The notes under the pieces: generated by a model
Told to the model about the DNA's origin: nothing
Database searches by the model: none
The model's input: the letters and a program-made list of their open reading frames with translations, nothing else
DNA from: a virus
Length of the DNA stretch: 22,708 bases
Virus record (IMG/VR): IMGVR_UViG_3300010354_012352
Span: 1-22,708 of that record
Reading direction: 5' to 3' (one strand)
Program-made: the position numbers and the translations under genes
Shown here: positions 1 through 17,006 of the stretch, piece after piece
How the letters are laid out: each line of letters starts with the position of its first letter
How positions within the stretch are numbered: the stretch's first letter is position 1

Positions 1-117
1 CAAGGTACACAAGGTACACAAGGTACACAAGGTACACAAGGTACTCAAGGTACTCAAGGTACTCAGGGTACTCAGGGTGCTCAAGGTACTCAGGGTGCTC
101 AAGGTATTCAAGGACTT
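1..117 (+). repeat. 9-base minisatellite encoding Gly-X-Gln
   Basis: The first ~117 bases are a head-to-tail array of a 9-base unit of the form CAAGGTACA, CAAGGTACT or CAGGGTGCT. The first four units are identical at the base level, not only in protein. Such pure arrays can expand or contract by slippage in steps of three residues without breaking the frame. Confidence 0.85.
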
Positions 118-621
118 CAAGGACTTCAAGGTATTCAAGGAACTCAAGCAACCCAAGGAGTTCAAGGAGTTCAAGGTAACCAAGCAAATCAAGGTCTTCA
201 AGGTTTACAAGGACTTCAAGGTATTCAAGGAACTCAAGCAACCCAAGGAGTTCAAGGTAACCAAGCAAATCAAGGTCTTCAAGGTTTACAAGGACTTCAA
301 GGATTGCAGGGTAGACAAGGTACACAAGCAGCTCAAGGAACTCAAGGATTACAAGGTTTAACTGGACCAGTTGCTGGTACTGATGGACAAGTAATTTATA
401 ATAATGGTGGAGCTGCAGGAGGTGCAACTAATTTAATCTATGATGATATTAATAACCGAGTTGGAATTGGAACTGCAACACCACAATTCCTTGCTGATGT
501 TAATGGTGATTTAAGAGTTACTTCAACAAATAGAATGAGATTTGGTGGAACCTCAACAACCACAAACTTCTATATACAATATAATTCAACGACTAATAGT
601 TTAGACTTCGTATCGGGATGA
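1..621 (+). CDS. Collagen-like tail-fibre protein, C-terminal part (5' end outside window)
   Basis: The frame is open from base 1, so the start lies upstream; 206 residues are visible. Residues 1 to about 118 are collagen-type triplets read as Gly-X-Gln (GTQ, GAQ, GIQ, GLQ, GVQ, GNQ), ending in GLTGPVAG. In five triplets the helix glycine is replaced by alanine (ATQ twice, ANQ twice, AAQ once). A globular tail follows with the phage-fibre signature NNRVGIGTATP and a final YNSTTNSLDF motif. Phage collagen-like segments generally form trimeric stalks of fibres, so a virion fibre or adhesin stalk is inferred. The stop lies four bases before the next gene, and the same C-terminal motif and junction recur at 5241/5246. 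The Gly-X-Y array is obvious; the exact fibre type is unknown. Confidence 0.85.
   Translation, partial: QGTQGTQGTQGTQGTQGTQGTQGTQGAQGTQGAQGIQGLQGLQGIQGTQATQGVQGVQGNQANQGLQGLQGLQGIQGTQATQGVQGNQANQGLQGLQGLQGLQGRQGTQAAQGTQGLQGLTGPVAGTDGQVIYNNGGAAGGATNLIYDDINNRVGIGTATPQFLADVNGDLRVTSTNRMRFGGTSTTTNFYIQYNSTTNSLDFVSG
121..291 (+). repeat. Higher-order tandem duplication within the collagen-like stalk
   Basis: Two adjacent blocks, 121-210 (90 bases) and 211-291 (81 bases), have the same series of 9-base units. They differ by one extra 9-base unit in the first block. The match is at nucleotide level and includes the alanine-interrupted triplets, indicating a recent block duplication rather than selection for collagen composition alone. 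Confidence 0.8.
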
Positions 622-2164: not shown

Positions 2165-2169
2165 CAAAT

Positions 2170-2177
2170 AATAAATA
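2170..2177 (+). promoter_or_regulatory. Candidate T4-type late promoter (AATAAATA)
   Basis: AATAAATA matches the NATAAATA late-promoter form of T4-like cyanophages. It lies in the 34-base gap before the structural gene at 2199, with 21 bases between box and ATG. A Shine-Dalgarno AAAGGA sits at 2182-2187. The box-to-ATG distance equals that of the box at 7075-7082. Confidence 0.6.
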
Positions 2178-2198
2178 CAACAAAGGAATCAATTAATT

Positions 2199-5036
2199 AT
2201 GGCAAGAAAGGTATTACTGGAAACTGGATATACATTTACACCCTCAACGAGGACTATCGTTATTCCGAGAGTCATTCCAAGGGAAAGATTGATATTAATT
2301 ACTAATGTCACCAGTAATCAAGTAATTTACAATTTTTCCGATTCAAATCTAAAAGCGACTAGTTATACACTTAGTGGTTCTGCAGATACTACTACCGTTG
2401 TCTTAAATTTTGATACTGCAGGAATGGGTAGTACTGATAAACTTCAGATTATTCTTGATGATTATGAGGAGAGGATATATCCAGCTGAAGTAGTAATGGA
2501 TCCTGTGACGAAACTGAGAGTTTCGACTCCACAGGCACTAATTGATACTGACTTTGAATATAGCACACAACCTACTAAATGGGAGTCACTCTCTTTACAG
2601 GAGAATAGACCAACAGCGTTTTATGATTCTACCACTCCAGTTACTTCCGTTACTAACATTACTGGAGCAGGTACACGTACAGTAACTGTAACACTTTCAA
2701 GTACGACTGGTATTGCTGTAGGAACTCCTGTTTTTATTCAGGATGCTACTGATCCAATTGCGAGTGGTTGGCAATTAGTTGAAACTGTTACTCTAAACAC
2801 AAACTTTACTTATGTTGCAAGAGCAAACGTAACGAACGGGACAATTTTTGATTCATCGAAAACTTATGTGTTTATTGGAGAATTTTATACTTCAGCAGCA
2901 ATTCCAGTAAGTTCAGGTGCTGGTCTTGCATTTGTAGGTGCTGGAACATCAATTACATGTACTACAACATCTGCTCACGGACTTTCTGTTGGTAACGGTA
3001 TTTTTGTAAGAAACACAACAGCAACAACAAACCCACCAAACGGAGCATTTTTTATCAAATTTGTTCAGTCTTCAAACACATTCATCTTTGATGTTGACCT
3101 TGCTCCAACTGGAACAATTACTGCAACTGGTGGAACTCAAAACCTATATGGAAGACCATATGGATCAACAATTCATAGACCTTACGATGGTGGAGTAGCT
3201 TTTACTGCAGGAAATCCATATCATGGTAATCAGTTAATACGTCAAACGAGAAGATATTTTAGATATCAGTCTGGTAAAGGAATTCAGTTTAGTACTGGAA
3301 CTAACTTGAAACCTGCTATAAGTATTGATAATATGACTTCATCAGGAACAACAGTGACAGTTACCACAAAATTCCCACATAATTTGGGTACTGGTGGAAC
3401 TGTCGTTGTTTCTGGTGCTGATCAATCAGCATATAATGGAACATTTACGGTTGCATCAGTTCCTTCTGATTTGACATTTACTTATAGCACTGCACCATTA
3501 ACACCAGCATCATCACCTGCAACTGGATTCCCAATTACAGTTTCTCCAGGAACTTGGTATGGTGCTAGAACTCGTATTGGAATGTTTGATGATCAGAATG
3601 GATTTTTCTTTGAATATGACGGCCAAACATTATATGCAGTAAGAAGAACAAGCACGGATCAACTTTCTGGTGGTGTTTCTGTAACTAATGGATCTGCAGT
3701 AGTAACTGGAACTGGTACTAAGTTTTCATCTGAGTTAAAACCTGCAGATATGATAGTCATTCGTGGAATGATATATGTTGTACTTTCTATTACGAGTGAT
3801 ACTAATTTGATTATTTCTCCTGAATATAGAGGAACAACTATTACTAGTGGAAGAGTAATTGTTACAAAGAGATTCCAACAAAAAGTACCACAGTCGCAGT
3901 GGAATATTGATAAGTGTGATGGAACTGGAATTTCTGGATATACTATAGATCTGACAAAGATGCAGATGCTTTATATTGACTATTCTTGGTATGGTGCAGG
4001 TGCAATTCGTTTTGGATTTAAGAACCAGAGAGGTGAAGTTGTATATGCCCACAGAATACCTAATGCAAACTATAGAACCGAAGCATTTATGAGATCTGGT
4101 AACTTACCAGCTAGATATGAATGTAACACTATTGCTCCAGTTACTTATTTGACGGCAACTTTAACTTCTGGTGTCACAGCATCGATGTCAGTAAATGATA
4201 CTTCTGAGTTTCCAACTTCTGGAACTGTAGTTGTTCGTGCTTCTGGAAATACTGGAGCATCCGTCGAATATATTAACTATACTGGAAAAACTGCAACAAC
4301 ATTAACTGGTTTAACAAGAAACGTTTCGAACTTAACTGGTCCTGGAGGATTGACTGCTGGTGGTGGAACTACGGCGCCGACCACATTTACATATAGTGCA
4401 ACTGCTCCCATTATGGTTGAACTTCATTCTCCACAAACTTCGGTAAATGTAAGCCACTGGGGTTCTTCTGTGATTATGGACGGTAGATTTGATGATGATA
4501 AATCTTTCGTGTTTACTGCAGGTATGAATACTTCATTAAGTATTGCTTCAGGTGCTACAAATGCTCTGATTTCATTACGCCTTGCTCCAACTGTTGACTC
4601 TGGACAGACGGGACTATTGGGACAAAGAGAACTAATTAACCGAATGCAATTAACTCTTCGTGAACTTGGTGCGGTCGCAAGTGGCAATATGAGAGTTAGT
4701 TTGATATTGAATGGAAGAGTAAGTGCTGGAACTTTTACCTCTGCTGGTGGTTCTTCTCTTTCTCAGGTTTGTTTACACACAGCAACAACAACTATAACTG
4801 GCGGTGAAACAATTTATTCTTTCTTTGTTCCTGCTGGTGTTAACTCAAAAGATCTTAATCTTGTTCGTGATCTTGCAAATTCAATTTTAGGTGGAGGAAC
4901 TAGTTTAAACGTTCCAACAACTGCTGCTAATCTTTATCCTGATGGACCTGATGTTGTGACTGTTGTTGCTACTAATGTTGCGGTTAATGCTCAGACAATT
5001 AACGCTAGAATTTCTTGGACGGAGGCACAAGCATAA
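2199..5036 (+). CDS. Large modular beta-rich virion structural protein
   Basis: 945 residues, beginning MARKVLLETGYTFTP. The N-terminal ~140 residues are a compact domain ending near PVTKLRVSTPQALIDTDFEY. Several beta-rich modules typical of phage baseplate and fibre proteins follow. Three modules (about 155-215, 245-305 and 380-440) share a pattern of T-x-T-V followed by a V-G or H-G-L turn and then V-x-V; two of them show the H-x-L-x-x-G turn. Another carries SAVVTGTGTKFSSEL and PEYRGTT (~500-550), and one carries SEFPTSGTVVVR and YINYTGKTATTLTG (~660-705). Composition is Thr/Ser/Gly-rich with few cysteines. It has its own late promoter and Shine-Dalgarno, and the next gene starts one base after its stop. 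A baseplate or tail-fibre attachment role is inferred from content and neighbours; I do not recognise a specific T4 homologue. Confidence 0.75.
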   Translation: MARKVLLETGYTFTPSTRTIVIPRVIPRERLILITNVTSNQVIYNFSDSNLKATSYTLSGSADTTTVVLNFDTAGMGSTDKLQIILDDYEERIYPAEVVMDPVTKLRVSTPQALIDTDFEYSTQPTKWESLSLQENRPTAFYDSTTPVTSVTNITGAGTRTVTVTLSSTTGIAVGTPVFIQDATDPIASGWQLVETVTLNTNFTYVARANVTNGTIFDSSKTYVFIGEFYTSAAIPVSSGAGLAFVGAGTSITCTTTSAHGLSVGNGIFVRNTTATTNPPNGAFFIKFVQSSNTFIFDVDLAPTGTITATGGTQNLYGRPYGSTIHRPYDGGVAFTAGNPYHGNQLIRQTRRYFRYQSGKGIQFSTGTNLKPAISIDNMTSSGTTVTVTTKFPHNLGTGGTVVVSGADQSAYNGTFTVASVPSDLTFTYSTAPLTPASSPATGFPITVSPGTWYGARTRIGMFDDQNGFFFEYDGQTLYAVRRTSTDQLSGGVSVTNGSAVVTGTGTKFSSELKPADMIVIRGMIYVVLSITSDTNLIISPEYRGTTITSGRVIVTKRFQQKVPQSQWNIDKCDGTGISGYTIDLTKMQMLYIDYSWYGAGAIRFGFKNQRGEVVYAHRIPNANYRTEAFMRSGNLPARYECNTIAPVTYLTATLTSGVTASMSVNDTSEFPTSGTVVVRASGNTGASVEYINYTGKTATTLTGLTRNVSNLTGPGGLTAGGGTTAPTTFTYSATAPIMVELHSPQTSVNVSHWGSSVIMDGRFDDDKSFVFTAGMNTSLSIASGATNALISLRLAPTVDSGQTGLLGQRELINRMQLTLRELGAVASGNMRVSLILNGRVSAGTFTSAGGSSLSQVCLHTATTTITGGETIYSFFVPAGVNSKDLNLVRDLANSILGGGTSLNVPTTAANLYPDGPDVVTVVATNVAVNAQTINARISWTEAQA

Positions 5037-5037
5037 A

Positions 5038-5241
5038 ATGGCAAAACTTAAAGGCGGATCAAGAGTTTATGGTAATATCACAATTGATAACGATATTACC
5101 AGCGTGGTTAATGTTACTGCAACTGGAAACGTTGCAGTAGATGGTGCATTTAGAGCAGAGTCATCTAACTCTACTGAAAGATTTGAAGTTTATTATAACG
5201 AAACCACAGATAGTTTAGATTTTGATTACTTAACTGCTTGA
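5038..5241 (+). CDS. 67-residue fibre adaptor-like protein
   Basis: The ATG at 5038 is chosen over upstream in-frame codons because it gives MAKLKGGSRVYGN, matching the start of the 7104 gene (MAKLKSGTRIFGD), and because GGAGG lies at 5021-5025. It starts one base after the stop of the 945-residue gene. The C-terminus (FEVYYNETTDSLDF) resembles that of the collagen-like protein (FYIQYNSTTNSLDF). It therefore looks like a minimal joint: the N-terminal cap of one fibre family fused to the C-terminal motif of another. The next gene starts four bases after its stop. Role unknown; a fibre adaptor or trimerisation cap is an inference. Confidence 0.7.
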   Translation: MAKLKGGSRVYGNITIDNDITSVVNVTATGNVAVDGAFRAESSNSTERFEVYYNETTDSLDFDYLTA

Positions 5242-5245
5242 TATT

Positions 5246-7072
5246 ATGACAGTTGCTGCAAAATTGACTGGTGTTGGAACATTTTATGCATATGAATATG
5301 ATGAGACCGATGTATCTAAATTTAGAGTTGGTAGTGCTGGGACTGCTTTTTCTTTTGAATTTGATGAGAATACTGCAAGCACATTAACTGGCGTTAAGAT
5401 GATGAGTGCTATCTCTAATGGTGGATTAATTGTCCGTGATTCACTTAATGAGGTTGATCCATTTTCTACATTTGATCCACTTACTAGTAGTTTAGCTTTG
5501 GCGGTGTATACTGATGCTGGATATCCCGGTGGATATTCTATATTGGAACCTATTGGTCAACAGGCATATACTACCCCGGGAACTTTTAATTTTACAGTTC
5601 CTTCTTATGCTACTTCTATTTCTGCCGTTGCTATTGGTGCAGGTGGGGGAGGTGGAGGAACTGATGGTGGTAATGGCAACTCAAGAGCTGCAGGGGGAGG
5701 TGGAGCACTATCTTATGCTAATAATATTTCCGTAACTGCAGGAGAAACTCTCACCATAGTTGTAGGTGCTGGTGGTAATGGCGGGGCTAATGGTTCTAAT
5801 GGATCTACTGGTGGAGATAGTTCAATATCAAGAGGAGCTTCTACACTTCTTTTAGCAAAAGCTGGTCAGGGTGGAGGAACAAGTACGACTGTTAATACTC
5901 CGGGTGGATTTAATGGTGATGGTGTTGGTGATGTAAGATGGAATGGAGGTGCTGGGGGAAGAGGAAGTAATAATAGTGGTGCAGGTGGAGGCGGCGCCGC
6001 TGGATATACTGGAGAAGGTGGTACTGGTGGATATGGACCTTCTGGATCTGAAACTAATGCAACCGTAGTTGCAAATAGTGGTGGTGGTGCTGGCGGACAG
6101 TATGGTGATACTGGAGCATTTGGTGGTGGAGGTGGTGGAGGTGTTGGACTTCTTGCCTCTGGATCAGTAACTACAGGAACAGTCAATACTGGACTTGGGA
6201 ATGGTGGTGGTGCTGGTTCTGGGGGAACTAATGGATCTAATGCAGTTAATGGTGCAGACTCCGGAGCCGCTGGTGGGGCATATGGTGGGGGTGGAGGTTC
6301 TGCAAATGATGATGGTGCTGCTGGTGGTAATGGTGCTGGTGGTGCTATAAGAATTATTTGGGGAACATCGGGTACTAGATCTTATCCTAGTTCCTTAGTA
6401 AACGATCAAACTACTTTTAGTGGAGGTGTGGCGCTAACAGATTTAACTGGATTTATATGGGCAAATAATCATAGTCTTGTCCCAAGAAATGGAACAACAT
6501 ATTCTTCTACTAAAGGTGGTATTGTCTTATTTGATGGTGTAGATGACTATCTTACTACTGGTGATTCTTTAGGTCTTGGTTATGCAGGTGTTGTGGGTAC
6601 TGGTGCAAGAACTAGTATAATATGGTTTAGAATTGATACTCCTAACGTTGCATATAGACTTTATGGGTGGGGAACAACTGTAACTGGGGCAAAATGGAAT
6701 CTTTCTCTGGATGCCACTACATTTAAAGCTAGAGCAGAAATTGGGGGTGCTGCTGTTACCGCTGGTCCAACGGAACCATCTGTTATAGATGGAAATTGGC
6801 ATATGGTTGCAACAACAGCACCTGCGAATGGAACTGCAAATGATATTAGACTTTATATTGACGGAGCATTAGTAACGGATACTGTAATCACTAATGGAGC
6901 AACCGCAATTAATACTAGTAATTCGGGATTACCTGTAACCGTAGGAGCATCACTTGCCGATGCTTCTCCCGGATATATGTCTGGCGCAATATCATCATTT
7001 TTTATATATGAGGAGCAATTGACGGAATTGCAAATTAAAGAGCATTACAGATTAATTTTAAATCGCTACTAA
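5246..7072 (+). CDS. Glycine-rich plus LamG-like adhesin
   Basis: 608 residues. Residues ~1-105 form a leader domain (MTVAAKLTGVGTFYAYEYDE). A domain starting QQAYTTPGTFNFTVP (~108) leads into a long glycine-rich region (~130-375) with many GGGG runs and ending GAIRIIWG. The C-terminal ~200 residues are LamG-like: GGIVLFDGVDDYL, GNWHMVATTA, IRLYIDGALV and MSGAISSFFIYEEQLTELQI. The glycine-rich part recalls polyglycine-II receptor-binding domains such as the gp38 adhesins of T-even phages, by composition only. Start ATG 5246 lies four bases after the 67-residue gene, with no clear Shine-Dalgarno, so re-initiation is likely. Probably a receptor-binding virion protein. Confidence 0.8.
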   Translation: MTVAAKLTGVGTFYAYEYDETDVSKFRVGSAGTAFSFEFDENTASTLTGVKMMSAISNGGLIVRDSLNEVDPFSTFDPLTSSLALAVYTDAGYPGGYSILEPIGQQAYTTPGTFNFTVPSYATSISAVAIGAGGGGGGTDGGNGNSRAAGGGGALSYANNISVTAGETLTIVVGAGGNGGANGSNGSTGGDSSISRGASTLLLAKAGQGGGTSTTVNTPGGFNGDGVGDVRWNGGAGGRGSNNSGAGGGGAAGYTGEGGTGGYGPSGSETNATVVANSGGGAGGQYGDTGAFGGGGGGGVGLLASGSVTTGTVNTGLGNGGGAGSGGTNGSNAVNGADSGAAGGAYGGGGGSANDDGAAGGNGAGGAIRIIWGTSGTRSYPSSLVNDQTTFSGGVALTDLTGFIWANNHSLVPRNGTTYSSTKGGIVLFDGVDDYLTTGDSLGLGYAGVVGTGARTSIIWFRIDTPNVAYRLYGWGTTVTGAKWNLSLDATTFKARAEIGGAAVTAGPTEPSVIDGNWHMVATTAPANGTANDIRLYIDGALVTDTVITNGATAINTSNSGLPVTVGASLADASPGYMSGAISSFFIYEEQLTELQIKEHYRLILNRY

Positions 7073-7074
7073 AC

Positions 7075-7082
7075 CATAAATA
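7075..7082 (+). promoter_or_regulatory. Candidate T4-type late promoter (CATAAATA)
   Basis: CATAAATA in the 31-base gap before the 7104 gene, with 21 bases between box and ATG, exactly as for the box at 2170-2177. This fits the NATAAATA late motif of T4-like phages, read by the sliding-clamp/gp55/gp33 machinery. Confidence 0.6.
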
Positions 7083-7103
7083 TTCAAAAACGTAGTTAAC
7101 AAT

Positions 7104-7784
7104 ATGGCAAAATTAAAAAGTGGAACCAGAATTTTTGGTGATTTGCTTGTTGATGGAGCTATTGATTTTTCTTCTGTAACTTTAATAGCTCCTGTTGTTG
7201 GTGAAGTTGAATATGACGGGACAAATTTTTATGCCTCTGGAAATGCAAGTTATGGTAGAGGGACTATACCACTAACAAATTATACTAGTGGTGCAGGAAC
7301 TGCTGGCATCACAGGTTCAACAAACTTTGCACTTTTTCCTGCAGCAAATGACACAATAACCTTACCTGTTGGAACTTATCTTGTAAGGATGAGAGTTAGA
7401 GTTGCAGTAACTGGATCTACTTCTGCTGCTACTATGGCAATAAATCTTAGAGGAGCAGGAACTGCAGTTGGATCATTTAGTTGGGGAGGAACCGGGGCAA
7501 TTCTTGATGCCGGTGCTGCTAACTCTTTTATCGTTGCGGCAACTGCTCTTGGAACAAACGTTGTGGTGACTGCATCGAGCACCGGAAACCCAAGACAATA
7601 TATTGCTTTAGGTGAAGGTATATTAAAAGTTACTACTGCTGGCACAATTATTCCAGCATATCAATTCTCTGCGACGGTGACTGGAGGAACAACAACTTTG
7701 GTTGCTGATAATTATATGACAATTCAATCTCTAGATACGCAAAGTGCTGCTGCTTTTGGACCTTCTGGTTCCGGATGGGGTTAA
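7104..7784 (+). CDS. C1q/TNF-like fibre tip protein
   Basis: 226 residues. The N-terminus MAKLKSGTRIFGDLLVDG matches the 67-residue gene at 5038. Residues ~55-215 have the strand pattern of a C1q/TNF-like jelly roll: GRGTIPLTNYTSG, TITLPVGTYLVRMRVRV, MAINLRGAG and DNYMTIQSL. The protein ends in a short Gly/Ser/Trp tail (FGPSGSGWG). Such modules form trimeric tips of phage fibres and bind receptors. It has its own late promoter and is the last structural gene before the carbohydrate island. The domain call rests on pattern recognition alone. Confidence 0.65.
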   Translation: MAKLKSGTRIFGDLLVDGAIDFSSVTLIAPVVGEVEYDGTNFYASGNASYGRGTIPLTNYTSGAGTAGITGSTNFALFPAANDTITLPVGTYLVRMRVRVAVTGSTSAATMAINLRGAGTAVGSFSWGGTGAILDAGAANSFIVAATALGTNVVVTASSTGNPRQYIALGEGILKVTTAGTIIPAYQFSATVTGGTTTLVADNYMTIQSLDTQSAAAFGPSGSGWG

Positions 7785-7806: not shown

Positions 7807-7815
7807 TGTTATAAT
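7807..7815 (+). promoter_or_regulatory. Candidate extended -10 promoter (TGTTATAAT)
   Basis: A perfect TATAAT (7810-7815) preceded by TG-N forms an extended -10, which does not need a -35; none is seen at 17-base spacing. It lies 35 bases before the first gene of the carbohydrate island, in the only sizeable gap there. It suggests that the island is read by host-type sigma70 polymerase, apart from the late fibre genes. Confidence 0.5.
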
Positions 7816-7850
7816 GACTTTAAACTGTTTATTTTGGATGATAATTTTAT

Positions 7851-8843
7851 ATGTCTGATAATTTTGTAAAAGATGCCTTGAAAAATGGAGGAAGCATTCA
7901 CCCTCTTATTTTTCCGGCAAAGTATTTAAAAGGACCTGCGATCACGAATCCATCCATCTATAATGATAATGGAACTATTCTTGTAAATCTTCGAAACATT
8001 AATTATACTCTTTATCATTCTGAAAAGCGAAAGTTTGAACACCACTGGGGTCCTCTAGTTTATATTCACCCAGAGAATGACATTAGGTTAAGAACTAATA
8101 ATGTAATGGGTGAGATTGATGAAAATATGCAACTTAAGTGGTATGATAGAATTGATACTTCTAAGTTTCCTGATAAAGAACTTTGGGACTTCGTTGGTCT
8201 TGAAGATTGTAGAATTGTTAGGTGGAACGGAAAACTTTATGTTTCGGGAGTTCGTAGAGATCTAGATACCAAAGGTACTGGTAGAATGGAACTCTCTGAG
8301 ATTGAAATTACTGAGGATGGTGTAAAAGAAGTTGCACAGTATCGCATTCCAACTCCAGGCCACGTTGGAGATGAGGGATCATACTGTGAAAAGAATTGGA
8401 TGCCAATTATTGATATGCCGTTCCATTATGTTAAGTGGACTAATGGCACAGAAGTTGTAAAGTATGACATTAAAACAAATCGCACAGAACAAGTTGTTTT
8501 AAAACAGTGGAAAGACCTTGGTACAATTGACCTTCGTGGAGGATCTCAGGTAATTCCTTATAATCATAATCATCGTTTCTGCCTCAATCATGAAACTTAC
8601 TTGACTAGAAGTGATGCAGGAAGAAAGGATGGAATTTACAGGCATCGTTTTATTGTTTGGGATAATGATTGGAATATTGTTAAAGTTTCTAGGCAGTTTT
8701 CTTTTCTGAACGCCAGTATTGAATTTGCGGTCGGTATGTGTGAGTACGGTGATGATTATCTAATTACTTTTGGATTTCAGGACAATGCTGCATATCTACT
8801 CAGAGTTTCTCAACAATTTGTAAAAGAATATATCTTCGAATAA
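7851..8843 (+). CDS. GH130/GH43-like five-bladed propeller protein
   Basis: 330 residues. The phrase FVGLEDCRIVRWNGKLYVSG (~122-141) resembles the G-x-E-D-P-R segment of GH130 (DUF377) glycoside phosphorylases and related five-bladed beta-propellers. Later segments DLRGGSQVIPYN and SIEFAVGMCEYGDDYLITFG fit further blades. GH130 members cleave or phosphorolyse beta-mannosides; whether this copy is catalytic is unknown, since the usual proline after ED is cysteine here. It is the first gene of the island, 35 bases downstream of an extended -10 promoter, and the next gene starts one base after its stop. It could trim or bind a glycan made by the following enzymes, or be a glycosyltransferase-associated lectin-like protein. 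Confidence 0.6.
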   Translation: MSDNFVKDALKNGGSIHPLIFPAKYLKGPAITNPSIYNDNGTILVNLRNINYTLYHSEKRKFEHHWGPLVYIHPENDIRLRTNNVMGEIDENMQLKWYDRIDTSKFPDKELWDFVGLEDCRIVRWNGKLYVSGVRRDLDTKGTGRMELSEIEITEDGVKEVAQYRIPTPGHVGDEGSYCEKNWMPIIDMPFHYVKWTNGTEVVKYDIKTNRTEQVVLKQWKDLGTIDLRGGSQVIPYNHNHRFCLNHETYLTRSDAGRKDGIYRHRFIVWDNDWNIVKVSRQFSFLNASIEFAVGMCEYGDDYLITFGFQDNAAYLLRVSQQFVKEYIFE

Positions 8844-8844
8844 A

Positions 8845-9402
8845 ATGAGTTTTATTAATCACGATCACGTAAATACTATCGTAAAAAAACTAGATCAGAT
8901 AATCAGTAAATATAATATTTTTATTGAATCTGGAACTTTTGGTGGAGAAACTATTGTAAATCTCAGAAATAGTTTTCAAACTTTATATACAATTGAACTA
9001 TCTGAAAAATATTATCAGTATTTTGACGAAATAAAGAACAGGGAAAAGTATTATAATATTCAAAATCTTTTTGGTGATACTGTAAAAGTTCTACCAAAGA
9101 TTCTTGAAGAACTGAAAGAATCTGATAGAGTAATCTTCTGGTTAGATGGACACTGGTCTTCTTTGGACACTGCTAAAGGAGAAAAGGATTGTCCCGTTAT
9201 TGACGAATGCACTTCAATTGATCAACTCTATAAATCAAATGAGGCGATTATTTTAATCGATGATTATCGTTTATTCGGAACTTATATTGCCGAAGATTGG
9301 TCAGATGTTACTGAAGAAAATATTCTTAAATGCTTTAAAAACTTTAAAATAGTTCAACATTTTGTTGAAGAAGATATTTTGGTACTTTATATTAAAAAAT
9401 GA
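8845..9402 (+). CDS. Class I SAM methyltransferase-like protein
   Basis: 185 residues with a Rossmann-type layout. Motif I-like FIESGTFGGETI is at ~26-37, followed by TIELSEKYYQYF, an acidic strand IFWLDGHWS near 98-106 and AIILIDDYRLFG near 134-145. The pattern (SGTFGG, IELS, LDGHWS, LIDD) is that of small FkbM/TylF-like methyltransferases common in polysaccharide clusters, which usually O-methylate sugars. It starts one base after the GH130-like gene and overlaps the next by four bases (ATGA), so it is part of a coupled operon. The acceptor is unknown; a lack of methyltransferase activity cannot be excluded. Confidence 0.6.
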   Translation: MSFINHDHVNTIVKKLDQIISKYNIFIESGTFGGETIVNLRNSFQTLYTIELSEKYYQYFDEIKNREKYYNIQNLFGDTVKVLPKILEELKESDRVIFWLDGHWSSLDTAKGEKDCPVIDECTSIDQLYKSNEAIILIDDYRLFGTYIAEDWSDVTEENILKCFKNFKIVQHFVEEDILVLYIKK

Positions 9403-10199
9403 TTTCATTTAATAAACTTGGAAATAAAGGTAGATTGGGAAATCAAATGTTCCAATATGCTGGTCTGAAAGGAATCGCAAGACATCATAACTATGATTTC
9501 TGTATTCCTTTATCTGGTATATTTGGAACTAATGATGAGAGAGTTCAGGCATCAGACGTGAACTTATATAATTTCCCAAATATAGTAAACAATACAGTTC
9601 AAATGACTAATTTTTCTACAATAGAAGAATCGACATTTGCTTTTGATGAGGAATTGTTTTATAATTGTCCAGACAGCACCAATATATTTGGATACTTGCA
9701 AACTGAAAAGTATTTCAAACATATAGAAGATGAAATCAGGGAGGACTTTAAGTTTCCTAATTTCACGCAAAAAATGTGTCAAACATATGTTGAAGGTGTA
9801 TTTGAGAAATCAGAAGTGATCGCTTTACATATTCGTAGAAGTGATTATGTTACTGATCCAAACTTTCCTCTACTAGATTTTAATTATTATCAGCGGGCAC
9901 TTGAAGTTTTAGATTTGGATCTACCTATTATTGTTCTTTCTGATGATCCTGAGTGGTGTGAAAAACAATTTTTCTTTAAGAATGAAAGATTTAAGATATC
10001 AAAATCTAATAATACTTTAGTTGATTTGTGTCTAATGAGTTTGTGTCAGTATCATATTATCGCTAACAGTTCTTATAGTTGGTGGGGTGCTTGGTTGGCA
10101 GATTCTAAGAAAGTAGTTGCTCCTAAAAAATGGTTCTCTGGAGACCTATCTGATTGGGACACTAAAGATTTATACTGTCCTGAATGGATTTCTATATAG
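9399..10199 (+). CDS. GT11 family alpha-1,2-fucosyltransferase-like protein
   Basis: 266 residues. It carries the GT11 hallmarks in order: GRLGNQMFQYAG (11-22), LHIRRSDYV (~142-150; the HxRRxDY GDP-fucose-binding motif), SDDPEWC (~187) and ANSSYSWWGAWLA (~222-234). GT11 enzymes move fucose from GDP-fucose to galactose or similar acceptors in O-antigens and capsules. Length is slightly short of the usual ~280-300. No GDP-fucose synthesis genes are in the window, so the donor would come from the host or from elsewhere in the phage genome. The ATG overlaps the previous stop by four bases. Confidence 0.85.
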   Translation: MISFNKLGNKGRLGNQMFQYAGLKGIARHHNYDFCIPLSGIFGTNDERVQASDVNLYNFPNIVNNTVQMTNFSTIEESTFAFDEELFYNCPDSTNIFGYLQTEKYFKHIEDEIREDFKFPNFTQKMCQTYVEGVFEKSEVIALHIRRSDYVTDPNFPLLDFNYYQRALEVLDLDLPIIVLSDDPEWCEKQFFFKNERFKISKSNNTLVDLCLMSLCQYHIIANSSYSWWGAWLADSKKVVAPKKWFSGDLSDWDTKDLYCPEWISI

Positions 10200-10232
10200 T
10201 TATATTAAAAATAGTTATTTTTTGAGTTGTTT

Positions 10233-12419
10233 ATGAACATTTCAGTAATTTGTGCGTGTAAAAATCGTTCTAATGCCCTTAGAGTATCCTTATCATCTTG
10301 GTTACTTCGTGATGAAATTAAGGAAATTATTATTGTTGATTGGAATTCTGATGAACCAATCAATTATCTAACTAAGTTGGATAAGAGAATTAAAATTGTC
10401 AGAGTTGAGGATGAAAAGTATTTTAATCAACCTCAACCTTTAAACTTGGCTCTCAGTATGACTACTGGAGACTATATTTTAAAATTAGATACTGATTATA
10501 TTATCAATCCCTACAAAGAATTTTTTGAAAACTATATTCCCAGTGAATCATCTTTTGTTTCAGGAAATCAATCGGTAGATAGCCCAGAATTTATAGATCC
10601 CAAAACTGGGAATTCTATGATTGATATGACCAATATGTCCATACAAGAAATAGCAGATTATGTTAATACATATTCTCATTTCTATAAATTTTTAACTGGA
10701 ATGTTGTTTGTTTCCAAAGAAAATTTACTTAGCATTGGTGGGTATAATGAGACTTTTACTAAGTATTATGCTTTTGAAGATGATGAAATATGTCAAAGAC
10801 TAGAGTTGTATGGATTGGATCATATTAAGTTAAAATATGATTATAATATGATTCACATTCCTCATTCTGATCATAAGAGGTTTGAGAATTTTAGGGGATT
10901 TATTGAGTCTAAATCGAGCACAGATTTAGACTCAATGCCTGATTGTGAATATAAATGGCAAACTGAATACTTTATTGCACAGAAGCATATTGATAATAAT
11001 AAAAAAATGTGTTCTGAGATAAAAAATTATTATGTTAAGCCAAGAACAAAGTGGGATATAAGTAACATTGATGATCAAAATTATTTTGCCAAAAAAATAA
11101 TAGATGATAAGTTGGATGGATTTCCTCCTGCATACTACGTTTCATTGGAAGAAAGTCAAGAAAGAAGAGACAATCTTGAATCTCAATTTGGATTTTATGG
11201 TATTAATCTTACAGGAATTATTTCAAAAAGATTTTCTGAGTGTGACGATATAGTATATGGAAAATATCTTGCAAGTTTAAATGAAGGGACTACTGGATGT
11301 GTAATATCTCACCTAAAAGCAATTAAGCAATGGTATGATACAACTGATCAAGAGTATGGATTCTTCTGTGAAGATGATCTAAGTTTAGAGACAGTTGATT
11401 ATTGGAATTTTACTTGGAAAGAATTTATTGATACCATTCCAGATGACGCTGATTGTGTTCAATTATTTGCAATACGTGGTGAGTATGATACATTTGAACT
11501 TCGTGAAAGATATTGGGATGATTGGGGTGCTTCTGCCTATATTGTTAGAAGAGAATATGCAAAGAGATTAATTGATACTTATATTCGTGATGATGGATAT
11601 TGTCTTGAAATTCCCAATCAAACTACTATGCCTTTGATTGAAAATATTCTTTTTGCTAGTTTAGGTAAGTGTTATACCATACCATTATTTGTAGAAGAAG
11701 TTAAGTTCCAATCTACATTTGTAGGAAAAGATGATGATGTAAATGATGGGCAGAAAAAGAATCATTATGTATCTCATAAAAAAGTTTTAGAATGGTGGAA
11801 AGGAAAAACAACTTTAGTAGAAAATACAAGTGTTTCTAAAGTTCAAATTCATAATAAAAATTTGACACTAACTGATTTATTTGAGTCTGGTAATTACAAT
11901 ACCGATAAAAGTGATCTTGGATATCTTGAACATTTTTATGATGATTTCTTTATTAAATTCAAAGAAACATCGATTACTATGATGGAAATTGGTGTTTATA
12001 ATGGAGGATCTATTAAACTTTGGAAAGATTATTTAAATTCTGAAAGTAAAATATACGCTGCAGATATAGAATATTTTGACCATCTTGAAGGAACGTATTC
12101 TGTTATGGGTGATATGTATTCTGATCAGCAAGTATCTAAATTTCCTAATGATTATTTTGATCTAATCATTGATGACGGACCTCATTCTTTTGAATCTTTT
12201 ATTTTGTTAATTCAGAAATATTTTTCCAAAATCAAGCAAGGTGGAACTTTAATTGTAGAGGATGTTATTTATACTGAGTGGGTTGAACCTCTTGTTAAGA
12301 TGGCAGAATTAATTGGATACTCTGATGTTAAAGTTGTAAATATGACTGAAAAACAAAAGACCCAAGAGTTATTTGAACGCTGGAGGGGTGGATTGTACAT
12401 CCTAAATATTACAAAATGA
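10233..12419 (+). CDS. Trifunctional GT2-GT25-methyltransferase fusion
   Basis: 728 residues from ATG 10233; an upstream in-frame TTG at 10227 would add two residues and is less likely. Three modules are visible. (1) GT2-like, ~1-260: ISVICACKNRS, IIIVDWNSDEP, a D-x-D (LKLDTDY, ~85) and FEDDEICQRL (~181). (2) GT25-like, ~300-530: YYVSLEESQERRDNL, GCVISHLKA (~355) and FFCEDDLSL (~377). (3) Class I methyltransferase, ~560-728: GNYNTDKSDLGYLEHFY, MEIGVYNGGS (~583), LIIDDGPHSF (~645) and GGTLIVEDV, resembling TylF/MycE-type sugar O-methyltransferases. Such a chain could add two sugars and methylate one. GT25 includes LPS galactosyltransferases and collagen galactosyltransferases. The Shine-Dalgarno is weak. 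Module calls are by motif; substrates are unknown. Confidence 0.8.
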   Translation: MNISVICACKNRSNALRVSLSSWLLRDEIKEIIIVDWNSDEPINYLTKLDKRIKIVRVEDEKYFNQPQPLNLALSMTTGDYILKLDTDYIINPYKEFFENYIPSESSFVSGNQSVDSPEFIDPKTGNSMIDMTNMSIQEIADYVNTYSHFYKFLTGMLFVSKENLLSIGGYNETFTKYYAFEDDEICQRLELYGLDHIKLKYDYNMIHIPHSDHKRFENFRGFIESKSSTDLDSMPDCEYKWQTEYFIAQKHIDNNKKMCSEIKNYYVKPRTKWDISNIDDQNYFAKKIIDDKLDGFPPAYYVSLEESQERRDNLESQFGFYGINLTGIISKRFSECDDIVYGKYLASLNEGTTGCVISHLKAIKQWYDTTDQEYGFFCEDDLSLETVDYWNFTWKEFIDTIPDDADCVQLFAIRGEYDTFELRERYWDDWGASAYIVRREYAKRLIDTYIRDDGYCLEIPNQTTMPLIENILFASLGKCYTIPLFVEEVKFQSTFVGKDDDVNDGQKKNHYVSHKKVLEWWKGKTTLVENTSVSKVQIHNKNLTLTDLFESGNYNTDKSDLGYLEHFYDDFFIKFKETSITMMEIGVYNGGSIKLWKDYLNSESKIYAADIEYFDHLEGTYSVMGDMYSDQQVSKFPNDYFDLIIDDGPHSFESFILLIQKYFSKIKQGGTLIVEDVIYTEWVEPLVKMAELIGYSDVKVVNMTEKQKTQELFERWRGGLYILNITK

Positions 12420-12451
12420 AATACTTTATTTCAACACTGATTTAGATTAAT

Positions 12452-14593
12452 ATGGCACATCAAGAACAAAAAGATTTCGTAGAAAAATTAAGAAATAGTT
12501 TTTCAGAGTTTTTTACTAACAAAAAAGTTTTAGAAATTGGAAGTCTAAACATAAATGGATCTATTAGAGAATTTTTTGATAACTGTAAATATACAGGAAT
12601 AGATGTTGGTTTTGGTGATGGTGTTGATATAGTTTGTGAGGGGCAAAATTATAAAGCCTCTGACGATACTTATGACGTTGTTCTTTCTGCAGAATGTTTT
12701 GAGCATAATCCATATTGGTTAGAAACATTTAAAAATATGATCCGTTTATGTAAAAACAACGGACTAGTATTCTTTACTTGTGCAACAGATGGTAGACCAG
12801 AACACGGAACATCTAAAACAACACCATTAGATTCTCCATTGACAGTTAATCTTGGTTGGGATTATTATCGTAATTTAAATGAAAAAAACTTTACTGATGA
12901 AATAAATTTTGATGATTATTTTTCAGAATACCAATTTGAAATTAATGAAGAACATAAAGACTTATATTTTTGGGGCATAGTTAATAAGGGAGTAAGTAAA
13001 AACATTCAAATTGACAAATCAAAAAATAAAGAGTATGATAGTAACATTGGAAAAAATGTTTATAAAGAAGATATGATAAGTGTTTCTCCATATGAAAAAG
13101 TTCATAATGTAGTGGATTGTTTTCAATACAATAATGAAAAAGAATTACTTGAGCTTAGGGTAAAATTATTAAAAGATCAAGTTGATTTATTCTTGATCTT
13201 TGAAGGAAATTATACACACGATGGAAGTCCAAAAGAATTTACTTGTAATAGAGTAATTGATGAACTTGGATTGCCAAAGAGTAAAATAAGAGTCTTTGAA
13301 ATTGATCTTTCTGATCCAGGAAAACCATCTACTTTTGATTTAAACTATAATCCTCAACAAAAGGTAGGAAGTATAGAGAGAATTCAAAGAGATTATTTGA
13401 ATAATATTTTAGATGAATTTGATGATGACACAGTCTTTATAGTTAGTGATTGTGATGAAATTATTAATTCAACAAATGTAAAATTTGTTTCTGAAATAGC
13501 TAGATCGAATAAAGATTTTGTATTTAAAATTCCTCTGGTTCATCTTGAGGGTAGAGCAGATTATAGGGTTCATTATTTGAATTCTAAATCTTATCCTTGG
13601 GACAGATCTATGTTTGTTTGTACCAAGAAAGTTTTAGAAAAAAATCCTGCTACCCATATTAGATCTGAATTTCTCAGAAAAGGATATGAGATTAGGTATG
13701 TAACTCATGGCGGAGAAATTTGTCAGGATTTAGGTTGGAATTTTAGTTGGATGGGAACTAATGAAGACCGAGTTAATAAATTTAAAACATTATGTGATAT
13801 TAAAAATGATTTTATTTCTTCATTAGCATCTGGTTATGATTATGATGAGCTTATAACGTATATTCAGAATTATACTTTTGAAGATGGTGGACATTCTTGC
13901 TATGGAAACTTCAAAGTTATTTTGAAAAAATATTCTATTTTAGAATTACCTCCAATAATCTTTAGTCTTCCTAGGGTTGAACAGTATCTTATTCCAGATA
14001 TTGTCGATTTAAAAAATAGTAAGAACGAAGAACTTACAAAACTTATGAATACTTATTCTCTGGATACTGAGAATGCGGAGAATAATTTTAACCTTGGTGT
14101 ATGGTATGAAGATGAGGGACATACTGCTCCCGCACTATCTTATTTTTTGAGATGTGCTGAGAGGGCAACTGATAATAATCTTGCATATGAAGCGTTAATT
14201 AGATCTTCTTATTGCTATCAGAAGCAAGGAACTAGAGACGGAAGTGCAAAATCTTTGTTGGAACAAGCATTATGTTTAATGCCAGAAAGACCAGAAGCTT
14301 ATTTCCTTTTGAGTAGATTTGCTGAGAGAAGACAGTGGTGGCAGGATTGTTATATTCATGCTGATAGAGGATTGAGGTATTCTGATTTTAATTCAGTACC
14401 TCTTAAAACCTGTGTTGAATATCCTGGCAAATATGGATTATTATTTGAAAAAGCAGTTGGTGCCTGGTGGTGGGGGAAAGTTGATGAGGCAAGAGATCTT
14501 CTTTTAGACGTTAAAAATAATTATGATGTTAATGAATATCATAAAAAGCAACTTGAGGAAAACCTTAAGAGACTTAAGATTACTATTGAATAA
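12452..14593 (+). CDS. Methyltransferase-GT17-TPR fusion protein
   Basis: 713 residues. Residues ~1-190 form a class I methyltransferase (KVLEIGSLNINGSIREFF, YTGIDV, YDVVLSAECFEHNPYW). Residues ~205-480 match GT17, the family of beta-1,4-N-acetylglucosaminyltransferase MGAT3: VVDCFQYNNEKELLELRV (~219), LFLIFEGNYTHDGSPKEF, FIVSDCDEI (~328) and GWNFSWMG. Residues ~540-713 form TPR-like helical repeats (NFNLGVWYEDEG, ALSYFLRCAERA, AKSLLEQALCLMPERPEAY), perhaps for protein contacts. The N-terminal module is nearly duplicated in the next gene. It follows the GT2-GT25 gene after a 32-base gap with no clear promoter. Module calls are firm to moderate; the acceptor is unknown. Confidence 0.8.
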   Translation: MAHQEQKDFVEKLRNSFSEFFTNKKVLEIGSLNINGSIREFFDNCKYTGIDVGFGDGVDIVCEGQNYKASDDTYDVVLSAECFEHNPYWLETFKNMIRLCKNNGLVFFTCATDGRPEHGTSKTTPLDSPLTVNLGWDYYRNLNEKNFTDEINFDDYFSEYQFEINEEHKDLYFWGIVNKGVSKNIQIDKSKNKEYDSNIGKNVYKEDMISVSPYEKVHNVVDCFQYNNEKELLELRVKLLKDQVDLFLIFEGNYTHDGSPKEFTCNRVIDELGLPKSKIRVFEIDLSDPGKPSTFDLNYNPQQKVGSIERIQRDYLNNILDEFDDDTVFIVSDCDEIINSTNVKFVSEIARSNKDFVFKIPLVHLEGRADYRVHYLNSKSYPWDRSMFVCTKKVLEKNPATHIRSEFLRKGYEIRYVTHGGEICQDLGWNFSWMGTNEDRVNKFKTLCDIKNDFISSLASGYDYDELITYIQNYTFEDGGHSCYGNFKVILKKYSILELPPIIFSLPRVEQYLIPDIVDLKNSKNEELTKLMNTYSLDTENAENNFNLGVWYEDEGHTAPALSYFLRCAERATDNNLAYEALIRSSYCYQKQGTRDGSAKSLLEQALCLMPERPEAYFLLSRFAERRQWWQDCYIHADRGLRYSDFNSVPLKTCVEYPGKYGLLFEKAVGAWWWGKVDEARDLLLDVKNNYDVNEYHKKQLEENLKRLKITIE

Positions 14594-14602
14594 TACTATT
14601 CT

Positions 14603-15934
14603 ATGTCATATAATCATCAAATAACTTTTGTAGAAAACTTAAAAAAAAGTTATCCCGAATTTTTTAAAAATCGAAGTGTTTTAGAAATTGGAAGTCTAAA
14701 CATTAATGGATCTATAAGGAATTCTTTTGAAAATTGTTTATATGTTGGAATTGATGTTAGGGGTGGAGAGTGTGTAGACGTTGTCTGTAATGGTAAAAAT
14801 TATAGAGCTCCTAACGAAACTTATGATGTTATTTGTTCCTTAGGTTCTTTTGAATACAATCCAGATTGGATTGCAACATTTAAAAATATGATCAGAATGT
14901 GTGTTCCTGGAGGACTGGTATTCTTTACTTGTTCTACTGAAAGCACTTCTGATCAAGAAAATGTACAAAAAACTTTAGAAAGTATTCCCCTGGAGACGGG
15001 GGATGAATGGGGTAACTACTATAAAAATTTAAAAGAAAGTGATTTTCATAATCATATAAATTTTGAAGATCACTTTGGTGATTTTTATTTTAACGTTGAT
15101 GAAGAATCAAAAGACTTAGTTTTTTATGGAGTAAAGAAAGGTAAGGTAAAAGAAAAGAAACCAATTCCTATGATTGGAATTCCAATAGTAAATGGATTTC
15201 ATTGGATTGAAAGACTTATTGATAGCATAGATTATCCTACCGATAAGGTTTTTATATTTGATAATAATGGTAGAGGTGAACTGACAAAAGATCTAGATAA
15301 TCTTGCTAAAAAGACATATACTTTCATTAAGGAAATAAAAGTATGTCACCTTCCAGCAAATATTGGAGTTGCTGGATCTTGGAATATGATTATTAAGTGT
15401 GGTATGAAATGTCCATATTGGATTATTTCAAATCACGATATTGCATTTACTCCTGGATTTTTGGAGAATTTTATTTCTAAGGCAGAGGACAAGGAAGTCG
15501 GTATTGTTCACGGTGGAGTTCGTGGGGCCTGGGATCTATTTCTTTTGAAGGACTGGGTGGTCCAGGAATGTGGATTGTTTGATGAAAACTTCTATCCAGC
15601 TTATGTTGAAGATTGTGATTATTTTATAAGAACAATGCTGAAAGGAATAAAAAAAGCAAATGCAGATCTTCATTATCTACACGGTGAAAAAGATTATGAA
15701 ACTACCGGATCGCAAACTTGGAGACAAGATCCTTCATTGAAGGATAAATTATATCATAGTCGTTATGTTAATGAAGTTTCATATATGTACTCTAAGTGGG
15801 GTCCCGAATGGCATAAGGGATTAGATTGGGTTGATACTAATCCATACAAACATCCCTTTGATAATAAGGAACTTCCTTTAAATTATACGACCTATGATTT
15901 AAACTTTGTAAGAGAAAAACATTTAGGATTTTAA
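14603..15934 (+). CDS. Methyltransferase-GT2 fusion protein
   Basis: 443 residues. The N-terminal ~185 residues are a paralogue of the preceding gene's methyltransferase, with VLEIGSLNINGSIR intact. The segment SAECFEHNPYW has become SLGSFEYNPDW, losing the Glu-Cys and His, so its activity may differ. From ~190 a GT2-like domain follows: IPMIGIPIVNGFHWIERL, VFIFDNNGRGE, LPANIGVAGSWNMI, ISNHDIAFTPGFLENF (~275) and AYVEDCDYFIRTMLKG (~335). It lies nine bases after the previous stop. This pair of genes shows one methyltransferase head joined to two different glycosyltransferases, suggesting that the head is a shared functional or docking module of the same pathway. Confidence 0.8.
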   Translation: MSYNHQITFVENLKKSYPEFFKNRSVLEIGSLNINGSIRNSFENCLYVGIDVRGGECVDVVCNGKNYRAPNETYDVICSLGSFEYNPDWIATFKNMIRMCVPGGLVFFTCSTESTSDQENVQKTLESIPLETGDEWGNYYKNLKESDFHNHINFEDHFGDFYFNVDEESKDLVFYGVKKGKVKEKKPIPMIGIPIVNGFHWIERLIDSIDYPTDKVFIFDNNGRGELTKDLDNLAKKTYTFIKEIKVCHLPANIGVAGSWNMIIKCGMKCPYWIISNHDIAFTPGFLENFISKAEDKEVGIVHGGVRGAWDLFLLKDWVVQECGLFDENFYPAYVEDCDYFIRTMLKGIKKANADLHYLHGEKDYETTGSQTWRQDPSLKDKLYHSRYVNEVSYMYSKWGPEWHKGLDWVDTNPYKHPFDNKELPLNYTTYDLNFVREKHLGF

Positions 15935-15937
15935 CAT

Positions 15938-16765
15938 ATGGATTTTTCAGAAAAAATTGATATAGTTATTCAGGGACCATATACAGACTACACTGATTAT
16001 GTGGCGGAATGCTATCTACAGATTCCCTTTATTAATAATGTAATTATTTCTTGTTGGGAAAATGATAAAATGCCCGTTCAAAAAAGAAGGGTAAAGTTTA
16101 TTAGAAGTAAGTATCCAGTTTCTTGTGGAACTGATAATAAAAATATGCAGATCGTTTCTTCACTGAACGGTCTTAAGGCTTGTGAAACTAATTATGCCAT
16201 CAAAGTAAGGTCTGATCAAAAATTTACTTATGATAGTATGTTGGGTATGTATGATTTCTTTTTGAAGAATAATCAAAAAAATATTCAATATACTTACAAC
16301 GATAAAAAACCTAATAATAGAATCTTTGTTGCGGGTCATTATCCTAGATATCTTTTTGCCGCTAGAGATCACATTTATTGGGGTCAAACTGATGACTTGA
16401 TTGAATTATTTGATATCCCTTTGGAACAACATAGTTTAGTTGATAAAATAAGAGTTCCTAAAGATAGACTTGGTTGGTATGTTGATTACTTTATTAGAAG
16501 TGAAACTTACATAGGTGCTCACTATTGCTCTAATTTTGATGAGCAAATTAACAGGTTTCTTTTACTTCCCCAAGAGCATTTATATGATAATGCAGTTTAC
16601 TGGTATCATGTTAAATCAGTTAGTGACAATATAACCAGAAAAGTTTTTAAATCTTTTCCTAAGAGTGTCATAAACTTAGAATGGGTTCGGTGGAGAAGAT
16701 CTGGATTTAGTTTTAATTTTGATGAATATTTAAAAGTATCTGCTTGGGACGAGGAGGGATTTTGA
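15938..16765 (+). CDS. WavE-like LPS biosynthesis protein
   Basis: 275 residues. Features fitting the WavE family (putative glycosyltransferases of LPS core synthesis, described in Vibrio) are DIVIQGPYTDYTDYV near the N-terminus, VIISCWENDK and YAIKVRSDQKFTY (~86-98), a K-x-R-S-D-Q motif, followed by a Trp/Tyr-rich C-terminal half. It starts three bases after the preceding gene and is the last gene of the carbohydrate island; the glutaredoxin gene starts four bases after its stop. No membrane segment is seen, so cytoplasmic action is expected. The family call is moderate. Confidence 0.65.
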   Translation: MDFSEKIDIVIQGPYTDYTDYVAECYLQIPFINNVIISCWENDKMPVQKRRVKFIRSKYPVSCGTDNKNMQIVSSLNGLKACETNYAIKVRSDQKFTYDSMLGMYDFFLKNNQKNIQYTYNDKKPNNRIFVAGHYPRYLFAARDHIYWGQTDDLIELFDIPLEQHSLVDKIRVPKDRLGWYVDYFIRSETYIGAHYCSNFDEQINRFLLLPQEHLYDNAVYWYHVKSVSDNITRKVFKSFPKSVINLEWVRWRRSGFSFNFDEYLKVSAWDEEGF

Positions 16766-16769
16766 TCAA

Positions 16770-17006
16770 ATGAATTTTACTGTATATTCTAAAGATGGAT
16801 GTCCGTACTGCCAAAAAGTTAAACAGGTTTTAGAGTTGACTAAACAGCAGTTTGTGGTGTATAATTTGGGGGAAGATTTTACAAAAGATGAATTTTATTC
16901 AGAATTTGGTAAAGGATCTACATTTCCTCAGGTTATTTGTAATGATACACATATTGGAGGGTGTACTGACACTGTAAAATATCTTCAAGAAAAAAATATT
17001 TTATGA
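16770..17006 (+). CDS. nrdC: Glutaredoxin
   Basis: 78 residues, the full length of a small phage glutaredoxin. The dithiol active site CPYC is at residues 11-14. The cis-proline loop (STFPQVICND, ~51-60) and the GGCTD segment complete the glutathione-binding fold. In T4-like phages such proteins keep ribonucleotide reductase reduced for dNTP synthesis. A strong Shine-Dalgarno GAGGAGG (16751-16757) lies inside the end of the WavE-like gene. The product is of a different functional class from its upstream neighbours, although the spacing suggests the same transcript. The gene symbol follows T4 usage by analogy. Confidence 0.9.
   Translation: MNFTVYSKDGCPYCQKVKQVLELTKQQFVVYNLGEDFTKDEFYSEFGKGSTFPQVICNDTHIGGCTDTVKYLQEKNIL

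Follow-up and report, generated by a model that had tools for sequence, protein, structure and literature searches.

In gtrABC serotype-conversion cassettes, phage-encoded sugar transfer proceeds via membrane proteins and a lipid-linked sugar. Glycosyltransferases are also common in marine phages, where the assignment of their targets is for the most part guesswork. The "host recognition clusters" of pelagimyophages and cyanomyophages are hypervariable islands within the structural region of T4-like marine phages, in which tail fibres are combined with glycosyltransferases (PMC7029224), and the T4-like cyanophage S-SCSM1 carries a cell-wall/lipopolysaccharide (LPS) set that unites fucosyltransferases and several glycosyltransferases in a single genome (PMC9602691). 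We analyzed an island of seven genes, g1 to g7, at positions 7851–16765 of the 22.7-kb IMG/VR fragment IMGVR_UViG_3300010354_012352 (22,708 nucleotides, in the following the window), which stems from a T4-like cyanophage. The GH130/GT108-like protein encoded by g1 and a tetratricopeptide repeat (TPR) module form an obligate pair; they are the only invariant elements across the relatives of this island.

The island has phage-encoded sugar transfer in common with gtrABC and differs from it in that none of the seven proteins contains a transmembrane segment by hydropathy (highest Kyte-Doolittle 19-residue mean 1.23). The membrane flippase and membrane glycosyltransferase of gtr-type systems are missing from g1–g7. 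The glycosyltransferases of the host recognition clusters are listed generically, with GT8 as the commonest family, O-chain modification was inferred for them, and the available passages of PMC7029224 contain no invariant GH130-like/TPR pair. The S-SCSM1 set includes GDP-fucose synthesis, and neither a GH130-like gene nor a TPR partner appears in the available passages of PMC9602691. Glycosyltransferase-rich variable loci beside fibres (PMC7029224) and multi-gene glycan sets in a cyanophage (PMC9602691) are already known. No description of the pair or of this cluster was found in the open-licence literature, which, being the only literature covered, is weak evidence. Once an invariant core is set apart from interchangeable decoration genes, an imprecise "LPS-gene" annotation becomes a defined system whose enzymology can be tested.

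The GH130/GT108-like protein and its TPR partner

All seven open reading frames (ORFs) lie on the plus strand and are tightly packed, with spacings of +1, −4, +27, +32, +9 and +3 nt. For each of them a dN/dS ratio of 0.04–0.11 was obtained in comparison with the sister locus L006. This indicates strong purifying selection and thus functional genes. The seven consecutive genes of the original prediction, which had been made from the sequence alone, were all recovered. Its module assignments were borne out by Pfam and PHROGs for g3–g7, by fold models for g1 and g2 and by a profile for the TPR module. PHROGs independently assigned g3–g6 to glycosyltransferase/methyltransferase families.

The first core element, g1 (7851–8843, plus strand), is a predicted inverting mannosyltransferase/phosphorylase. 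The protein itself has no Pfam match, and 17 of 43 relatives match Glyco_hydro_130 (E up to 0.1; best 2.6e-5). Since g1 lacks a match above the cut-off it was classed as GH130/GT108-like and not as a GH130 member. Searches of PDB sequences with the single sequence and with a profile gave no match, and a fold search was therefore used. The AlphaFold model (pLDDT 84.9, pTM 0.87) is a five-bladed β-propeller. Its top Foldseek matches in the PDB are Leishmania GT108 mannosyltransferases, which are the closest structures, and GH130 phosphorylases are also among the best. With the GT108 proteins MPT-2 and MPT-4 (PDB 6q4x, 6q50) and the GH130 phosphorylases g1 shares the fold and the acid motif; it differs from them by an identity of 10–15%, a TM score of about 0.5–0.6, its phage-restricted clade and its genomic role. 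In a profile comparison with bacterial GH130 the GxED acid motif was aligned (E 1.3e-5). The GH130 acid pair E118-D119 as well as R48, N33 and D311 are kept in 43/43 relatives, the acid-motif and sugar-binding residues of GH130 being those named in PMC4599007; this agrees with the superfamily pattern of a catalytic Asp in G-x-E/Y-D together with Asn/Asp and Arg at the −1 subsite. In the profile alignment, the middle region of which is poorly aligned, H247 is paired with the His of the YHG motif in GH130. Among viral proteins, the nearest structural relatives of g1 are domains of giant-virus proteins, some of them annotated as glycosyltransferase fusions. An Actinomycetia-phage "beta-mannosyltransferase" (23% identity) was counted as a distant relative, since no TPR neighbour was present among the genes shown.

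The second core element is the C-terminal TPR module of g5 (14012–14590, plus strand). Single-sequence Pfam matches to TPRs remained below the cut-off, and the family profile matched designed TPRs (4.6e-14) and the TPRs of human O-GlcNAc transferase (OGT; 2.6e-4). Both systems couple TPR repeats to glycosyltransferases; unlike in OGT, the phage TPR is joined to GT25, GT17, GT2 or FkbM methyltransferase domains and not to the OGT catalytic domain.

Relatives were collected by g1, by g5 and by the downstream gene nrdC, the last of which avoids selecting on the island. The 35 nrdC-anchored loci with at least 4 kb of upstream sequence comprised 19 with both g1 and TPR, none with g1 only and 16 with neither (Fisher p 2e-10 if the loci, which include near-identical contigs, are taken as independent). 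The TPR module was found 3′ of g1 in 87/87 distinct g1 loci, in 42 of them as the immediately next gene, and in 66/66 g1 loci with enough sequence for a census of accessory genes. Fourteen of 21 whole records carried exactly one g1 and one TPR module and six carried neither; in the remaining record the TPR module lies at the extreme contig end, a position at which g1 would fall outside the sequence. Furthermore, the divergence of the TPR module tracks that of g1 best (Spearman 0.82 versus 0.42–0.72 for the accessories). In Synechococcus phage DSL-LC02 the TPR core protein is fused to an FkbM methyltransferase and radical SAM/SPASM domains (L003:14959-17112) and is situated between tail-fibre genes.

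The system is present in at least 600 IMG/VR stretches, and high-similarity matches were found in only 2 of 50,697 GenBank phage records. The Synechococcus phage isolate S-SCSM2R (host WH7803) carries the pair, its g1 relative being annotated as "MGP protein", a phosphorylase annotation; S-SKS1 and S-SRM01 have no pair. When 84,980 prokaryote genomes were scanned with peptide patterns, an approach that misses distant homologues, only five contigs (L233–L237) were obtained, and in each of them the two genes are neighbours. Recognisable phage genes are found on L236, L237 and L234, the last with neck, terminase and sheath genes; L233 and L235 measure only 3-4 kb. Apparently, these are phage contigs binned into bacterial or archaeal metagenome-assembled genomes, clearly so for the former three, while the length of L233 and L235 does not allow a confident assignment.

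In a second, large T4-like IMG/VR clade g1 is directly followed by a TPR protein in 80 of 83 loci, five of which came from the genome scan. This TPR protein of about 410 amino acids has an FkbM-like methyltransferase at its C-terminus. Usually next is a cytidylyltransferase fused to a mannose-6-phosphate-isomerase-type cupin (L234:7131-7910, assigned by Pfam; L236:3611-4372 and L273:12272-13039, assigned by position and length), which possibly makes an activated donor. The linkage across hundreds of uncultured viruses suggests an undescribed, widespread viral system that decorates the phages' own fibres or the host surface.

Interchangeable accessory genes

All modules other than g1 and TPR are swapped, interchangeable accessories. 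In the 66 loci of the census GT25 was counted 50 times, GT2 38 times, a second GT2 29 times, GT17 28 times, GT11 18 times and WavE eight times, each methyltransferase in six to seven loci and g2 in three. Thus, the seven genes do not form the "complete assembly line" for a short methylated, fucosylated glycan that had been predicted: only the pair is conserved, and neither sugar-nucleotide synthesis nor an initiating transferase, a lipid-carrier enzyme, a flippase/polymerase or a ligase was detected among them with Pfam and PHROGs. By the same token g1–g7 do not constitute a complete LPS/O-antigen cluster.

The rare accessory g2 (8845–9402, plus strand, as are the following genes) has no Pfam match; its structure model (pLDDT 81.7) has the class-I (Rossmann) fold of S-adenosylmethionine (SAM)-dependent methyltransferases. 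The product of g3 (9399–10199) belongs to the GT11 family of α-1,2-fucosyltransferase-like proteins (Glyco_transf_11, 6e-26, 91.8 bits versus a cut-off of 23.9; PHROG 1e-106). A GT2/GT7C-GT25-Methyltransf_24 fusion is encoded by g4 (10227–12419), the true start of which may be the ATG at 10233. Its GT2/GT7C domain was matched by Pfam with 1e-8, its Methyltransf_24 domain below the cut-off (7e-5) and its GT25 domain marginally (3.8e-5, 24.1 bits versus 24.0), with a PHROG glucosyltransferase match of 6.9e-52 for the latter. The Methyltransf_23-GT17-TPR fusion g5 (12452–14593) gave Pfam values of 1.6e-8 for Methyltransf_23 and 9e-11 for GT17 (41.9 bits versus 26). Pfam and PHROGs identified g6 (14603–15934) as a Methyltransf_23-GT2 fusion. 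Finally, g7 (15938–16765), a rare accessory, is a member of the WavE-like LPS-synthesis family (Pfam 1.4e-13, 51.2 bits versus a cut-off of 27).

The sister locus L006 is collinear with the window (about 87% DNA identity) and has one GT2-GT25-GT17-TPR protein of 1069 amino acids in place of g4 and g5. Where L006 has about 29 bp the window has 1186 bp by blastn, an insert of about 1.19 kb (11815–13000, plus strand) which comprises the Methyltransf_24 domain, the stop of g4, the start of g5 and the Methyltransf_23 domain, with flanks 87.7% and 87.2% identical to L006. By this comparison g4 and g5 are halves of an ancestral GT2-GT25-GT17-TPR protein split by an insert with two methyltransferases. 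The fused form was found in 13/87 loci and the Methyltransf_23-GT17-TPR form of the window in 1/87, so that the split form is most simply the derived one. The Methyltransf_23 domains of g5 and g6 are relatives that share 51% identity as proteins, and at the DNA level the g5 domain is 73% identical to the g6 copy found in L006 across 286 bp. The three predicted fusions of glycosyltransferase and methyltransferase are present (g4, g5 and g6), but two of them result from the insertion that split one larger fusion. The island evolves by a shuffling of domains around the core.

Genome setting, borders and promoter

The window start cuts through a collagen-like (Gly-Thr-Gln) fibre, of which the C-terminal portion is included (1–621, plus strand; 16 consecutive Gly-X-X triplets). 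The plus-strand region 626–7784 then contains three ORFs assigned by PHROGs to virion structural or tail-fibre proteins (626–2164, 2199–5036 and 5246–7072) and a fourth (7104–7784) without a PHROGs match. The predicted position of the island directly behind fibre genes is therefore correct. At the right border the glutaredoxin-like gene nrdC (16770–17006, plus strand; Pfam/PHROG) starts 4 nt past the end of g7; this border is conserved, and with so short a distance the transcription unit need not stop at 16765. The order downstream, with nrdC, thymidylate synthase, phoH, an exonuclease and a gp59-type loader, is that of Synechococcus phages S-SKS1 and S-SRM01. Only a few hundred bases separate the fibre cluster from nrdC in S-SRM01, with no such island between them, and S-SKS1 has other cargo (sulfotransferase, 2-oxoglutarate (2OG) oxygenase) at this position. 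Thus, the site is a cargo position. A near-identity DNA search of the island against GenBank phages gave no match. The mapping of gene order across relatives, which had been proposed, yielded the two-element core, the swapped accessories and the fibre and nrdC borders.

The promoter that had been predicted for the island is present as an extended −10 element, TGTTATAAT (7808–7816, plus strand). The motif TGnTATAAT occurs within 120 nt 5′ of g1 in 20 of 87 distinct, though not independent, relatives versus 1.4 expected from mononucleotide shuffles, and TATAAT occurs in 47 of them versus 19 expected. Judged against these shuffles the excess of the promoter motif is large. A generic promoter scan of the region gave the background level (63 versus 63.6). 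A host-type, sigma-70-like promoter would permit expression without phage late factors.

Genes recurring 5′ of g1 in relatives encode a sulfotransferase (L033:182-961), a 2OG-Fe(II) oxygenase (L088:3082-3744), a GT2-methyltransferase fusion (L031:8017-9558) and DUF6165 (L193:1965-2348); the glycans of some relatives may be sulfated. Sugar-nucleotidyltransferase genes, one of them fused to a HAD phosphatase, are located within the islands of relatives (L016:13889-15259, L023:13917-14636), and by these annotations some islands encode donor synthesis. One relative's island (L023:15620-16855, IMGVR_UViG_3300007345_000027) also contains a gene for a RuBisCO large-chain-like protein of 412 amino acids (Pfam 1.1e-42; top PDB match an archaeal-type RuBisCO, 3.5e-40), in which the K-x-D-E active-site stretch is retained in the alignment and for which no match was found among the 50,697 phage records.

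Candidate acceptors of the glycan

The genes present, the identity of their modules, their strict linkage, location and selection and the lack of membrane segments are observed; from them we infer a scheme for the enzymatic activities, the donor, the order of action, the role of the TPR module and the acceptor. Acting in the host cytosol, g1 would attach a sugar, probably β-mannosyl since mannose is the family's usual sugar, from a GDP-sugar or sugar-1-phosphate donor, and this transfer would be indispensable. The TPR module, which bears or adjoins interchangeable glycosyltransferase or methyltransferase domains, would keep g1 and/or the acceptor within the complex. Accessory GT2, GT25, GT17, GT11 and WavE proteins would lengthen the glycan and methyltransferases cap it; with a virion protein as acceptor, the turnover of accessories would vary the glycan coat of the phage.

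For this soluble cytosolic system with its two-part obligate core we slightly favour a fibre or other virion protein as acceptor and stop just short of calling it probable. This preference rests on the finding that in different T4-like genome contexts the core follows tail-fibre genes directly, and that the pair keeps beside fibre or other structural genes even where no further part of the system is left. In DSL-LC02 the pair is located between tail-fibre genes, and in the second-clade loci read the trio is 3′ of a tail-fibre ORF, with neck proteins and terminase downstream; in L273 it is 5′ of a head-tail adaptor, a head closure protein and terminase. Further reasons to prefer the virion over host LPS are the TPR module and the lack of any encoded lipid-carrier or membrane component. 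More narrowly, and somewhat doubtfully, the pair may be a phage-restricted system of a GH130/GT108-like transferase and an acceptor-binding TPR module that glycosylates T4-like tail fibres, with swappable accessories providing a phage-specific fibre glycan. Were the fibres the target, abundant phages would display variable, phage-made glycans on their receptor-binding proteins, which would change the reading of host range and phage-phage competition.

Several points weigh against a virion acceptor. No constant neighbouring acceptor and no single fibre type was consistently adjacent to the core, the enrichment of collagen-like fibres beside it was not significant (2/17 versus 0/11), and a large ORF was present within five genes upstream in only 23 of the 44 second-clade loci with enough upstream sequence. 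The promoter is of the host sigma-70 type and not clearly late, the TPR module could simply oligomerise the enzymes, and the adjacency to fibres may merely reflect a plastic "host recognition" locus. Members of GT25, WavE and GT11 act in LPS pathways, and comparable loci were interpreted as O-chain modification in PMC7029224. Remodelling of the host surface is a possibility that we take seriously without expecting it to be correct. The cytosolic enzymes would build or modify cyanobacterial LPS core or O-units, host export would follow, and superinfection or later adsorption would be blocked. Besides these family memberships and the reading given to glycosyltransferase-rich clusters in PMC7029224, a sigma-70-like promoter, which is consistent with early expression, and hypervariable accessories, typical of antigen diversification, agree with such remodelling. 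The island, however, has no gene for a membrane protein, flippase, lipid carrier or ligase, a TPR core is unusual for LPS transferases, and the core keeps to structural genes even when cut down to two or three genes. As originally stated, the choice between the host surface and the phage's own fibres is not settled by the sequence; comparative genomics tilts it only modestly toward the virion.

It is improbable that g1 is a catabolic mannoside phosphorylase, an auxiliary metabolic gene giving the host mannose-1-phosphate amid unrelated cargo. The GH130 fold, the phosphorylase annotation of relatives such as that of S-SCSM2R and the position of H247 would fit, but g1 is obligately linked to the TPR module and to glycosyl- and methyltransferases, GT108 transferases are its closest structures, and neither a transporter nor a glycosidase was found among the island genes. 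An action on DNA or nucleotides is a frequent annotation of phage glycosyltransferases (e.g., PMC10611076), yet it is very improbable that phage DNA or nucleotides are glycosylated or hypermodified here: the families are glycan-specific, no base-modification gene lies beside the island, and the island is part of the fibre and not of the replication module.

Two further ideas were rejected. A tie of the core to the GDP-fucose/GDP-mannose pathway was dismissed since GDP-mannose dehydratase genes occur elsewhere in genomes both with and without g1. Glycosylation of collagen hydroxylysine by GT25 and a lysyl hydroxylase was discarded since the repeats beside g1 are Gly-(Thr/Asn/Leu/Val)-Gln and Lys is outside the ten commonest X/Y residues. 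Collagen-like Gly-X-Gln fibres were observed near the island in the window (1–621), in L042 (3–9821) and in L067 (8005–9930), with Thr as the commonest X residue; O-glycosylation of such fibres is conceivable.

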